From Candidatus Peribacteria bacterium (GTDB taxonomy: Bacteria > Patescibacteriota > Gracilibacteria > Peribacterales > Peribacteraceae), in the NCBI GenBank assembly GCA_023245935.1, contig JAHFJM010000005.1:1-64000 (forward strand): a DNA stretch of 64,000 bases, in the 5' to 3' direction. The position numbers and the translations under genes were made by a program. Positions 14,018 to 57,271 of the stretch are shown here, one piece after another. The stretch's first letter is position 1, and every line of letters begins with the position of its first letter. The notes under the pieces were generated by a model. It was not told the DNA's origin and searched no databases. It saw only the letters and a list, made by a program, of their open reading frames with translations.

Positions 14018-14179
14018 CGGTCCTCACCCCCAACCCCTCTCCTTCCGCAGGAGAGGGGAGCTCCGTTTTTCTGGATATGAAGTTTGGTCTGATTTATAAA
14101 AACTACTTTTCTCAATACGAATCTTCCTCTCTTCGCCGCAGCGGAGAGAGGTGGCGCATCAGCGCCGGAGTGAGGACCG
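14018..14179. repeat. Composite palindromic element with 10-bp terminal inverted repeats (copy A)
   Basis: Perfect terminal inverted repeats CGGTCCTCAC (14018-14027) and GTGAGGACCG (14170-14179) bound a 162-bp segment. Inside are CCCCTCTCC/GGAGAGGGG with a 7-nt loop (14034-14058), an imperfect CCTCTC...GAGAGG dyad, and GGCGC-atca-GCGCC. It fills the whole gap between the convergent infB and 14180 genes: infB's stop ends at 14017 and the next gene's stop codon occupies 14180-14182. An inverted copy is at 55722-55844. It looks like a MITE- or BIME-type element that could also terminate transcription from both sides. Confidence 0.8.
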
Positions 14180-53353: not shown

Positions 53354-54988
53354 ATGTCGAATTCAGAGGAGGTAAACGTTCAGCCACTCAAAGTTTTCGT
53401 CGTCGATGAGAAATCATCGACGAAGGTTCTGCTTGGCGCCGTGCGTAAATCCACTGGACCGTTCCTCGCGGTGATCGGTCCGGAGAGCCTCTCGCATCTC
53501 ACGGACGAAGCACTGCAGAAAGTGCTCTCGGCATCGAGAGCGCTCAACCCGGATCGCAGGCTGCTTCTTGCGACGAAAGATGCTCGTGTTTCCGGAGCAG
53601 CCAAGAATACAGGTTGGCAGACCATCGAGAGCCTGAAAGACCTCACCATTCATCTTCGCTTGCATCCGTTGCTCCAAGAAGCCATCCGTGCCTTCAGCCC
53701 CGTGACCTGGCGGCGCGATATCCGTTCCAGGCTTCAGCTCGTCGGACTTCTCTCGCTGCCGAAACTTCGCATCTGGACGTTGCTCACACTCAGCATCATT
53801 TCCTTCGGGTACGTTTTCTTCCGCTTCCTGCCGTCGGCGACCATTCGCATATGGTCAAACCAGGAGACGGAGACCTTCACGACGAATGTCTACATGGTGG
53901 AATCCGGAGCAAAGTTGCCGATTCCTTCGGATCGGATCAAAACACTTCCCCTTCGGCGTCTCACCGTGCACATCGATCGGACGATCACCTACGATCAGAT
54001 CAGCAAGAATTTCACGGGGACGAATCCGACCGTCGTGATGACGGTGTTCAACGATTCGGACGAGCCGTACTCTCTGCGGAAGGGGACACGCTTGCTGAAT
54101 CAGGCTGGAATGCGTTTTCGTCTTCTGGATGCGCTGATCCTCGCTCCGCACACGAAGCAGCAGTCGCGTGCGGAAGGGGATCCCATCGACCAGTACGGCG
54201 AGGTTCTCGGTGAGCGTGGAAACGTGCCCGCCGGTCTGAAATGGGATTTCCCCGGACTGTCCGAGAAAGAACGTTCCGTTGTCTATGCCCGCAACGAGAA
54301 GCCGGCTACCGGAGGAGCCACGTCGTATGTCAATATGCTTACCAAGGAGGACATTTTCGGTTCCCCGAAACATCCGGGAGCAAAGCAGCGGTTGGAACAA
54401 GAACTGCTCATGGTCGCAAAGCAGCAGGTCGAAGACGAGCGTATCGGCGACAGTAACGTGCACGGTACGAATTACGTACAATTGAAGAGAGACGATCTTA
54501 CGAAGACCGTCTTCAGCAACTTTCAGCTCTCCGAATCGTTCATCGGTCAGAACATCAGCTCGGTTCCGGTGTCGGGCAGCGTCGACTATACTGTCGTTCT
54601 GTACGACGAGAATAAGCTTCTTGAAATTCTAAAAGGGGAGGCGAACGAACGAACCGCGTCCGATAAAACCATTCTCGAAAGCTCACTGTCGAAGGACAAC
54701 ATGGATCTGTATGTGATCCCGCCGTGGGATGACGATCTCCGTTGGGTGAAGATCACTGCGGATTTGACTTACTCAGAAAGCTATGTCTTAAATCCCCTCA
54801 CGCCGGTCGGTGCGAAGTTTGCGAAGTACATCCGAGACAATGTGAGCGGGAAGGATATCGTCGAAGCGAAGCGAATCATCAAAAACCTTCCGGAAGTCAG
54901 CAAAGTGGAAATAAGCATCTGGCCGCCGTGGACGTACCAGTTACCGGCGATTGGATCGTCTATTGCCGTTCTCGAACAGGAGGATTAG
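53354..54988 (+). CDS. Single-pass envelope protein with baseplate-J-like domain (544 aa)
   Basis: The first 130 residues are cytoplasmic. One membrane helix at about 137-157 (IWTLLTLSIISFGYVFF) leads to a large extracytoplasmic region. The stretch KGTRLLNQAGMRFRLLDALILAPH, then GERGNVPAGLKWDFPGL and VYARNEKPATGG, has the layout of baseplate-J/gp47-like domains often annotated in CPR genomes. Its function there is unknown; surface-structure assembly is possible. TACTCT at 53343-53348 lies five bases before the ATG. Confidence 0.7.
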   Translation: MSNSEEVNVQPLKVFVVDEKSSTKVLLGAVRKSTGPFLAVIGPESLSHLTDEALQKVLSASRALNPDRRLLLATKDARVSGAAKNTGWQTIESLKDLTIHLRLHPLLQEAIRAFSPVTWRRDIRSRLQLVGLLSLPKLRIWTLLTLSIISFGYVFFRFLPSATIRIWSNQETETFTTNVYMVESGAKLPIPSDRIKTLPLRRLTVHIDRTITYDQISKNFTGTNPTVVMTVFNDSDEPYSLRKGTRLLNQAGMRFRLLDALILAPHTKQQSRAEGDPIDQYGEVLGERGNVPAGLKWDFPGLSEKERSVVYARNEKPATGGATSYVNMLTKEDIFGSPKHPGAKQRLEQELLMVAKQQVEDERIGDSNVHGTNYVQLKRDDLTKTVFSNFQLSESFIGQNISSVPVSGSVDYTVVLYDENKLLEILKGEANERTASDKTILESSLSKDNMDLYVIPPWDDDLRWVKITADLTYSESYVLNPLTPVGAKFAKYIRDNVSGKDIVEAKRIIKNLPEVSKVEISIWPPWTYQLPAIGSSIAVLEQED

Positions 54989-55352
54989 GTCGGCTTCTTC
55001 CTGGGGAGGGGCTGATTAAATAATGTACAAGATACATTGTGCATCATTCAAGAAATCTCCAGATTCACTCCCCTTTCTCTGTATTTATGAATTCTGTATT
55101 CAAGAAAAAGAAGTTTATCTTTCATTTCATCAAGTACTGCTTTGTGCACAAAAATGTGGATAACCGGTGATCGACAGATATCAGTGAATATCGTATTGAT
55201 CTGCACAGTCTTTCGCTCCCCTTCTCTGCGAATTTTTGATTTTCCTCTCAATGCAGTTGAAAACGCCCGGAGGCAGCTTTTTTTTCAATAAATTTGTATT
55301 CCGTCCAGTATTTCTATTTGCTTTGTATGGTGTACGAATGTACACTCATTCC
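54989..55352. other. AT-rich intergenic region with two DnaA-box-like 9-mers
   Basis: No gene is seen in these 364 bases. TTGTGCACA (55142-55150, plus strand) and TGTGGATAA (55155-55163, the exact minus-strand DnaA box TTATCCACA) lie five bases apart. The promoter-like TACACT of the next small gene is at 55341-55346. Two boxes are too few to call an origin. Confidence 0.4.
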
Positions 55353-55613
55353 ATGACAATCACTTCTCGCACTCCAAGGCTCAGGCGAAGCAGGCAGATG
55401 GTTTTGGACTGCAGAGACATGGATTTCTCAGTCCCCTCTTCCACTGACATCGCCGATTCCGTCATCGCCTGGGTGATGAGTTTTCCGCAGAGAAATGCCA
55501 TGCACGTCTATCTCCCCTCTTCAGCTCCATCGATTCGCAGACTTCAGTGCACACTCCAAGGCTTAGGTTGTGCCGTTTCCCGTGTAACAAAATTCATTCC
55601 ATCACGTTTATAA
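55353..55613 (+). CDS. Small hypothetical protein (86 aa)
   Basis: No family is recognised. An Arg-rich start (RTPRLRRSRQ) is followed by a mixed alpha/beta segment (DIADSVIAWVMSFPQRNAMHVYLPSSAPSIRRLQCTL) with three cysteines. TACACT at 55341-55346, exactly six bases before the ATG, selects this start over upstream ATGs and argues for expression. The first tiny membrane peptide gene begins six bases after its stop. Confidence 0.6.
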   Translation: MTITSRTPRLRRSRQMVLDCRDMDFSVPSSTDIADSVIAWVMSFPQRNAMHVYLPSSAPSIRRLQCTLQGLGCAVSRVTKFIPSRL

Positions 55614-55619
55614 GCTCCA

Positions 55620-55718
55620 ATGTCAAGAAAAGCGTACTCAAGCATCGGCAAGGCATTCATCCTCTCGGTCGCCCTCACGGCGGCACCGGCGCTGATGCTG
55701 AGGTGGTTGGTAATGTAG
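55620..55718 (+). CDS. Tiny single-span membrane peptide 1 (32 aa)
   Basis: The peptide starts MSRKAYSSIGKAFILSV and ends LMLRWLVM: a basic N-terminus, one hydrophobic helix and an Arg near the end. It is clearly related to the peptide at 55991 (same length, shared AY--IG-AF-LS and LR-LV) and more loosely to that at 55882. TATAAG lies five bases before the ATG. Palindromic element B begins three bases after the stop. Confidence 0.6.
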   Translation: MSRKAYSSIGKAFILSVALTAAPALMLRWLVM

Positions 55719-55721
55719 GCA

Positions 55722-55844
55722 GTCCTCACTCCGGCGCTGATGCGCCACCTCTCTCCGCTGCGGCGAAGAGAGGATGATTCGTATTGAGAAAGGCATGGGC
55801 TCCCCCTTCTCCAGCCGATGGAGAAGGGGTCAGGGGATGAGGAC
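55722..55844. repeat. Composite palindromic element, inverted copy (copy B)
   Basis: GTCCTCA (55722-55728) and TGAGGAC (55838-55844) are terminal inverted repeats. Internal parts mirror copy A in reverse: GGCGC-tgat-GCGCC (55733-55746), the CCTCTC...GAGAGG dyad with ccgctgcgg, GATTCGTATTGAGAAA shared with copy A's minus strand, and a perfect 10-bp stem CCCCTTCTCC/GGAGAAGGGG (near 55803-55829). The stem's sequence differs from copy A but pairing is kept, indicating compensatory change or selection on structure. Confidence 0.8.
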
Positions 55845-55881
55845 CGTGTAATAATTCTCCTTCCCTCTCGTCTTCTTCGGT

Positions 55882-55977
55882 ATGCGTACACATGCGTACC
55901 CAGACATCGGCGGATTGGCACTGTTCTTCCTCCTCGCAGTGATCGGTGCTCTTGCGCTGGTCCTCAGCGGTTTCTGA
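55882..55977 (+). CDS. Tiny single-span membrane peptide 2 (31 aa)
   Basis: It starts MRTHAYPDIGGLALFFLL and ends LALVLSGF. It shares the M--x-AY--IG opening with peptides 1 and 3 but has a longer, more hydrophobic span and no C-terminal Arg. It ends with TGA. No -10 hexamer lies close to its ATG; TAATTC is about 24 bases upstream. Confidence 0.5.
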   Translation: MRTHAYPDIGGLALFFLLAVIGALALVLSGF

Positions 55978-55990
55978 TTCCTTCTATGAT

Positions 55991-56089
55991 ATGTCCACTC
56001 GTGCATACATCGGTATCGGCAGAGCCTTCGCTCTCTCACTCGGCATCATCACGGTTGCCGCGATGGTGTTGAGGGGGTTGGTAGGGTAG
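55991..56089 (+). CDS. Tiny single-span membrane peptide 3 (32 aa)
   Basis: It starts MSTRAYIGIGRAFALSL and ends MVLRGLVG. Position by position it parallels peptide 1: basic residue before AY, IG followed by a basic residue, AF-LS, and LR-LV at the C-terminus. It begins 13 bases after peptide 2's stop. tyrS is convergent 15 bases after it. Confidence 0.58.
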   Translation: MSTRAYIGIGRAFALSLGIITVAAMVLRGLVG

Positions 56090-56104
56090 ATCTGTAAATT
56101 TCAT

Positions 56105-57271
56105 TCAACAGATTTTGAGGAACTTCCTCTTCCCAACCTTCACCACACCTTTTTCAGCTTTTGCATCAATTGATTTCACAACAACATCATTCACCTTCAC
56201 GCCTCCCTGCTCAATCAACCTTCTTGCTTCTGATTTGCTTGTGACAGTACCACTTGCAAGAAGCGCATCGATCAGCGATTCGCCTTTCTTCGCTTTGTAC
56301 TCGAGCATATCGTCCGGAACGCCTTTGTTCTTGAAGACATTCTCGAATGCCGCTTCGGCATCTTTCGCCGCCGCAGCGCTGTGGTACATGGTTACTATCT
56401 CCCGCGCGAGGCGCATTTTGAGGTTCTTCGGATTCTCTTTTCCGTCCTTCAGCGCTTTCTCGGCTGCTTTCACCTCGGTCATGGGAAGACCGGTGCAACA
56501 CTCCATGTACAGAGGAATGAGGTTGTCGGGCATGGAGAGAATGCGACCGTACATTTCGTCCGGTGTGTCGGTGAGGTATACGCAGTTGTTGTACGTTTTG
56601 CTCATCTTTCTGCCATCGGTTCCTTCGATTAATTTTGTGGTCAGGACGAACTTTTCACGTTTGCCGTAGGCTTTTTGGAGCGTCCGTCCCGCGAGCATGT
56701 TGAAGAGCTGGTCATTTCCGCCGAGTTCACAGTCTACGTCCAGCATGACGGAGTCGTAGCCGACCATCAGCGGATACAGAAACTCCTGAAGGTGAATCGG
56801 TTCTCCCCGCGATTCTCGATCCTTAAACATGTCCCGTTCCTCCATTTGCTGCTTCGTGAAGTGACTCGCAAGTTTGGCGATCTCCGCAAAACCAACCTTG
56901 GATAGCCATTCGTCGTTGTAGCGAATTTCCAGTTTCTTCATGTCGAGAATCAGCTTCGCCTGTTCAATGTAGGTTTCGAAATTTTTCTTCACGTCATCCG
57001 CAGTCAATGCTTGCCGCATTTCATCTCGACCGGTCGGATCACCGATCATTGCGGTGAAGCTTCCGATCAGAAGAATGACGTGGTGACCTGCATCCTGAAA
57101 CGCGCGCATTTTCCGAAGCGGCACAGAATGTCCGAGGTGCAGCTTCGCTCCGGTTGGGTCGATACCGAGATATATCCGCAGCGGCTTGCCGGATTTCAAC
57201 TTTTCTTCGGCAAGTTTTTTGGGGACGACGTCGCTGACTGCGCGCGAAAGAAGTTCGTCAAAGGATGTCAT
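56105..57271 (-). CDS. tyrS: Tyrosyl-tRNA synthetase (TyrZ type)
   Basis: This class I synthetase charges tRNA-Tyr. GIDPTGAKLHLGHSVPLRKM contains the HIGH-like signature, GGNDQLFNMLAGR is the tyrosine-recognition region and KMSKT is the second signature. A C-terminal S4 domain (SKSEARRLIEQGGVKVNDVVV) binds tRNA. The 388 residues and HLGH/KMSKT pattern fit the TyrZ group. It is divergent from rluD. Confidence 0.96.
   Translation of the reverse strand: MTSFDELLSRAVSDVVPKKLAEEKLKSGKPLRIYLGIDPTGAKLHLGHSVPLRKMRAFQDAGHHVILLIGSFTAMIGDPTGRDEMRQALTADDVKKNFETYIEQAKLILDMKKLEIRYNDEWLSKVGFAEIAKLASHFTKQQMEERDMFKDRESRGEPIHLQEFLYPLMVGYDSVMLDVDCELGGNDQLFNMLAGRTLQKAYGKREKFVLTTKLIEGTDGRKMSKTYNNCVYLTDTPDEMYGRILSMPDNLIPLYMECCTGLPMTEVKAAEKALKDGKENPKNLKMRLAREIVTMYHSAAAAKDAEAAFENVFKNKGVPDDMLEYKAKKGESLIDALLASGTVTSKSEARRLIEQGGVKVNDVVVKSIDAKAEKGVVKVGKRKFLKIC

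Follow-up and report, generated by a model that had tools for sequence, protein, structure and literature searches.

The window, by which we mean the whole 64,000-nt stretch of Candidatus Peribacteria DNA that was analysed, carries three very short reading frames in a row, each predicted to encode a peptide with a single membrane span. Their presence raises the question of whether frames of this size are genes at all, whether they are copies of one another, and under which conditions and to what effect their products would be made. We find that the locus probably encodes genuine stress-inducible single-span membrane peptides, the first of which (P1) would be induced via the SOS response or an extracytoplasmic function (ECF) sigma factor, and the other two (P2 and P3) via the ECF factor. 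The peptides probably belong to a hitherto undescribed stress response in these uncultured Peribacteria.

Reading frames and the selection acting on them

A preliminary description of this DNA, made from the sequence alone, placed the three frames at 55620, 55882 and 55991 and gave them 31-32 residues and one span each, all of which proved accurate:

P1, 55620-55718, + strand: 32-aa single-span peptide, MSRKAYSSIGKAFILSVALTAAPALMLRWLVM
P2, 55882-55977, + strand: 31-aa single-span peptide, MRTHAYPDIGGLALFFLLAVIGALALVLSGF
P3, 55991-56089, + strand: 32-aa single-span peptide, MSTRAYIGIGRAFALSLGIITVAAMVLRGLVG, a paralogue of P1 located 13 nt 3' of P2

The same description regarded the three peptides as related. 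This is true of P1 and P3, which are homologous and share 47% identity in an ungapped alignment whose score was equalled by none of 100,000 region-wise shuffles. The kinship does not extend to P2 beyond the N-terminal AY..IG that it has in common with the other two (P ~0.06-0.12), and its similarity in the helix is not significant. A search of the whole genome (1.22 Mb, 8 contigs) with P3 as the query returned P3, which adjoins tyrS in this genome, and P1 only. The peptides have no usable match in Pfam, NCBIfam or Rfam, the locus as a whole has no significant Rfam match, and P3 is without a match in plasmid sequences; that the peptides belong to no described family is thus borne out for the curated libraries (Pfam and NCBIfam).

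The same locus can be found in sister genomes classified as Candidatus Peribacteria, Peribacterales or Peribacteraceae, which confirms the CPR origin assumed in the preliminary description. P1 is intact in both sister species (G001 and G002), and P2 and P3 are intact, with no frameshift, in G001. Codon changes relative to the sister species show that all three peptide frames are under purifying selection: dN/dS is ~0.2-0.46 for P1 and, against G001, ~0.12 for P2 (7/1/14 substitutions at the three codon positions) and ~0.21 for P3, while the neighbouring gene that we call ORF A yields ~0.15. The preliminary description had held that the frames are translated and had proposed dN/dS as a check; with these values the frames do look like genes. 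It had also named broken frames in relatives as evidence to the contrary, and these were found in one sister species for the P2-P3 cassette, P1 being intact in both. In G002, P2 is absent and the first codons of P3, encoding its N-terminus, have been lost to a repeat, so that the cassette, which occurs in one genus only and is broken in one of three species, is dispensable.

The P1 family is more widely distributed. A profile of P1-like peptides (E<1e-7) detected it in 32 of 74 Peribacteraceae genomes, in 23 of which P1 lies directly 3' of ORF A and in nine elsewhere, sometimes beside tyrS. The family consensus is MSxDTRSxGLAFLLSxxLVxxxA, with G10 and S16 invariant and A12 and A24 nearly so. 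Chance frames in a gap of low constraint, owing their similarity to non-coding DNA that was recently duplicated locally, would be compatible with such short ORFs and with the repeats inserted nearby, but this reading is scarcely credible given the purifying selection, the absence of frameshifts between species, the conservation of the peptide family across these genomes and the promoters kept at a fixed distance from the ATG (described below). For P1, it is already refuted.

The gap between P1 and P2 is occupied by a repeat:

Repeat element, 55725-55829, no strand assigned: 29-bp repeat (55725-55753) and a perfect palindrome with 11-bp arms (55803-55829)

The 29-bp stretch has an exact copy on the opposite strand at 14146-14174 of the window. 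In the sister species, different repeats and a GIY-YIG-like ORF take the place of the element (gaps at L008:1661-2032 in G001 and L007:1047-1466, minus strand, in G002), which marks the P1-P2 gap as an insertion hotspot. The palindromic element noted between the first and second peptide is therefore present, but we rejected it as a shared part of the system, since it is a repeat of mobile type that other repeats replace in the sister species.

The putative ORF A promoter and its LexA box

Next to P1, we identified a longer gene that the preliminary description had not listed, just as it had missed the regulation described below. The promoter region of this gene contains an SOS operator:

LexA (SOS) box, 55330-55345, no strand assigned: GTGTACGAATGTACAC, a perfect palindrome of the pattern GTGTACNNNNGTACAC, in the ORF A promoter
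Putative SOS promoter of ORF A, 55318-55346, + strand: -35 TTGCTT (55318-55323), 17-nt spacer, -10 TACACT (55341-55346)
ORF A, 55353-55613, + strand: 86 aa, first gene of the putative SOS operon

Exact 16-bp matches to GTGTACNNNNGTACAC occur three times in the 1.22-Mb genome, against ~0.07 expected, and lie at ORF A, at recA and upstream of a UPF0102 gene. Boxes with one mismatch are found at recA (a second box) and ahead of both ssb and lexA. The genome encodes LexA, with matches to PF01726 and PF00717 (C6:357066-357239 and the full protein), and has the operator of the ORF A promoter ahead of lexA and recA as well. Among 52 ORF A loci, the box is perfect in 48, has one mismatch in two and two mismatches in one, and was not found in the remaining one; the start codon of the homologues usually lies 7-9 nt past the box. 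Across the Peribacteraceae, exact boxes can be found in 73 of 74 genomes (224 in total, compared with ~8 for a reversed control), and when 84,980 genomes were scanned for the box followed by an ATG, 20 of the 28 hits were ORF A homologues. P1 begins 6 nt after ORF A. Since the box is also found at lexA, recA and ssb and is unchanged in 48 of the 52 ORF A homologues, ORF A and P1 very probably form an SOS operon.

The putative SOS promoter was read from the sequence and is not called by a simple sigma-70 scan, although its TTGC.. and TACACT elements recur with near-identical geometry in relatives. As TTGC and TACACT frame the box, we infer that the ORF A mRNA would be nearly leaderless, starting near the ATG. 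Among the three peptides, P1 alone is a small single-span membrane protein in a putative SOS operon. LexA control of P2-P3 was considered and rejected: no box lies upstream of them, and a site with two mismatches at the start of P3 falls within coding sequence.

SOS boxes also accompany other genes of note. The ssb gene at the box-linked locus L022 (C6:142955) encodes two tandem stretches that match the SSB domain. In two other Peribacteria (L128:3154-3714 and L136:3828-4391), the same SOS box and an ATG precede LAGLIDADG endonuclease ORFs located within 23S rRNA group I introns, and homing of these introns may therefore be induced by DNA damage.

ORF A homologues were detected in 47 of 57 sampled Peribacteraceae genomes, with no convincing homologue outside this family among 288 genomes of the class. 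They share the conserved core IDxS...L..WV...P....HVYLPS....R.LQ..LQ.LGCTVT. The AlphaFold model, of modest confidence (mean pLDDT 76), predicts a beta-alpha-beta-alpha-beta mini-fold, for which a fold search returned no significant structural match. The protein has no match in Pfam or NCBIfam and matches the STAS domain weakly (E 0.008 over the full chain and 0.29 over the best-matching stretch). We rejected its identification as SulA, which is not among the Pfam profile, PDB-sequence or fold matches, and likewise a viral or plasmid origin, as ORF A has no match in viral contigs or phages and P3 none in plasmids.

ECF-type promoters and the sigma factor regulon

A second type of promoter was found ahead of both P1 and P2:

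ECF-type promoter of P1, 55584-55608, + strand: GTAAC-N16-CGTT, within the 3' end of the ORF A coding sequence
ECF-type promoter of P2-P3, 55848-55872, + strand: GTAAT-N16-CGTC, with the ATG 9 nt downstream

In a de novo enumeration, GTAA-N17-CGT ranks first upstream of P1 genes, being present at 19 of 29 against 0.16 expected, and no motif of this two-block form exceeds five in shuffled upstream sets. An N18 variant accounts for six further P1 genes (25 of 29 in total), and the distance from the motif to the ATG of P1-family genes is nearly constant. The four P1 genes that lack the motif are those of G031, G054, G039 and G011; the G031 copy adjoins ORF A and the others do not, and the G054 and G039 copies have sigma-70-like TTGACA promoters instead. 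With nine copies not next to ORF A and four of 29 lacking the ECF motif, joint control by the two systems does not extend to every P1 gene. The spacing of the P2 promoter is the same in G001. Its GTAAT differs in the third base of AAC, as does the promoter of the ECF sigma factor described below.

The genome contains three genes for ECF-type sigma factors. One of them (C4:125351) starts 7 nt after a copy of the motif, and the next gene encodes a DUF5667 anti-sigma-like protein. Of the 21 best-scoring Peribacteraceae orthologues of this sigma factor, 19 have the motif at the same position. AAC and CGT boxes, autoregulation and a co-transcribed neighbouring anti-sigma factor are hallmarks of ECF sigma factors (PMC8103513). 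The system found here resembles the known regulons in its AAC/CGT promoter, its autoregulation motif and its adjacent anti-sigma-like gene (PMC8103513), and differs from them in that the partner is a DUF5667 anti-sigma-like protein and that families of membrane peptides of 30-50 aa are among the putative targets. The motif is also present in this genome before genes for an HlyD-family adaptor and a FecR-domain protein, and in relatives it precedes genes for anti-sigma-like proteins, signal-peptide proteins and other membrane peptides of 40-48 aa. At L249 and L250, membrane peptides of 46-48 aa beginning M.(A/P)SILTH... are encoded near the ECF sigma gene and carry its promoter motif. Counts of the motif within this genome alone (four hits) are not above chance, and the case for ECF control thus rests on conservation across genomes. 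Regulon-wide counts derive from pattern searches and from selected stretches of sequence.

The P1 promoter overlaps ORF A codons, and in five close genomes the overlapped codons specify VTK..R. This opens the possibility that the motif is a by-product of conserved ORF A codons and that P1 is driven by the SOS promoter alone. The five codons over the promoter are, however, synonymously invariant in the five genomes, compared with three of 21 other comparable codons (Fisher P ~0.001), so that they are frozen where most others vary. The motif also stands at the same distance before P1 copies that ORF A does not overlap, and before P2. We consider the by-product explanation quite improbable, and continue with a genuine ECF-type promoter for P1. 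The preliminary description of three copies in a row is right about their adjacency, but the anatomy is that of two units: ORF A-P1, which is very probably an SOS operon and contains a further, ECF-type promoter for P1, and a separate P2-P3 cassette with an ECF promoter of its own.

Possible roles of the peptides

From these motifs, stress would be expected to induce the peptides, probably from leaderless mRNAs. DNA damage would lead to RecA-stimulated cleavage of LexA, which would free the box at 55330-55345 and allow ORF A-P1 to be transcribed. Envelope stress would act through the autoregulated ECF sigma factor and its DUF5667 anti-sigma-like partner on the promoter in the end of ORF A, and hence on P1, while P2-P3 would be made from their own ECF promoter. 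The peptides may then sit in the cytoplasmic membrane and make helix-helix contact with a membrane partner via the face formed by G10, A12, S16 and A24, with ORF A perhaps serving as a cytosolic partner; this placement and mode of action are a weaker inference than stress induction. The suggestion in the preliminary description that the peptides are regulators of membrane proteins is possible.

Our leading guess, which we advance tentatively, is that P1, acting much as SidA or YneA do, restrains synthesis of the septum or the envelope. It is based on the consideration that DNA damage and envelope stress both call for a pause in growth, and no sequence feature links P1 to the divisome. Small SOS-induced membrane proteins directed against late division are now considered widespread (PMC13396833, PMC4211646). 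SidA of Caulobacter is an SOS-induced single-span peptide of 29 aa that acts on the FtsW/FtsI/FtsN complex (PMC4211646). Compared by description with SidA and DidA, the small division inhibitors of Caulobacter, P1 is alike in the size of SidA, the single span and the link to SOS; unlike SidA, it occupies second place, behind ORF A, and has a further, ECF-type promoter, and its role in division would be by analogy. YneA of Bacillus, SosA of Staphylococcus and ChiZ are SOS-induced bitopic proteins for which a block of late division is presumed (PMC13396833, PMC6851548), but YneA carries an external LysM domain and SosA, at 77 aa, includes an extracellular part, whereas P1 has no extra domain. 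A broader picture, which we regard as rather doubtful, is a checkpoint throughout the Peribacteraceae in which P1 takes SOS and ECF inputs and stops division or envelope growth, with P2-P3 as a genus-specific addition to the regulon.

The peptides could instead be feedback or accessory subunits of the envelope, binding the anti-sigma factor as MgrB-like proteins or a pump served by the HlyD adaptor as AcrZ-like ones. The sigma factor, the anti-sigma factor and the HlyD-family adaptor form a regulon with the same promoter as the peptides, and G002, where P2-P3 are broken, is also without an orthologue of the sigma factor. This joint loss is suggestive, and as evidence it is weak because the G002 genome is 93% complete. 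We found no direct link to a pump or to the anti-sigma factor, and an accessory role would leave the SOS operon with ORF A unexplained, which makes it fairly unlikely.

Dormancy effectors of the TisB, DinQ or YohP kind, which would lower the membrane potential or otherwise alter the membrane and so silence metabolism, have the same size and single span. TisB and DinQ of E. coli are LexA-controlled single-span peptides of a size similar to that of P1 (PMC3567139), and YohP, a stress peptide of 27 aa, lowers the membrane potential (PMC12719787); induction by SOS and an envelope sigma factor, as proposed here, would fit such a role. YohP-type proteins are stress-induced inner-membrane proteins of <50 aa (PMC12719787) that resemble P1-P3 by description, but come from another group of organisms and are controlled differently. 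TisB and DinQ belong to type I systems with antisense RNAs, whereas at the P1-P3 locus no antisense antitoxin promoter was predicted: the simple scan called no sigma-70 promoter on either strand of 54900-56300, although it also misses the promoters described here. The motif MSxDTRxxGxAFLLS, with its invariant G and S, is kept across many genera, unlike what would be expected of a free membrane-perturbing helix, and some copies have apparent sigma-70-like promoters, which would hardly be tolerable for a toxin. We therefore judge dormancy effectors unlikely. The comparison with type I toxins drawn in the preliminary description likewise finds no backing, as no antisense promoter is predicted and the peptides are encoded by single-copy chromosomal genes under purifying selection.

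The locus gives named stress regulons, open to test, for uncultured bacteria with small genomes. ORF A represents a core SOS target family, with a LexA box, in most Peribacteraceae, and the putative targets of the autoregulated ECF sigma factor include membrane peptides of 30-50 aa that are absent from the family libraries searched. If P1 does pause division, reduced genomes would retain a checkpoint for DNA damage and the envelope that is built on a 32-aa peptide.

At approximately half of the ORF A loci, no neighbouring P1 can be recognised. In some genera (L034, L035 and L037), a single-span peptide of a further type, with 22-24 aa (MTFFILLIGILSLVW...), is encoded 3' of ORF A, and at L109 and L130 a 40-aa membrane peptide beginning MRSNLYIPG..., which is unrelated to P1, lies 3' of ORF A behind the same ECF promoter in two genomes. 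On the other side, a 544-aa protein without a Pfam match is encoded upstream of ORF A (window 53354-54988), and in G001 and G027, too, part of this gene can be seen ahead of ORF A.
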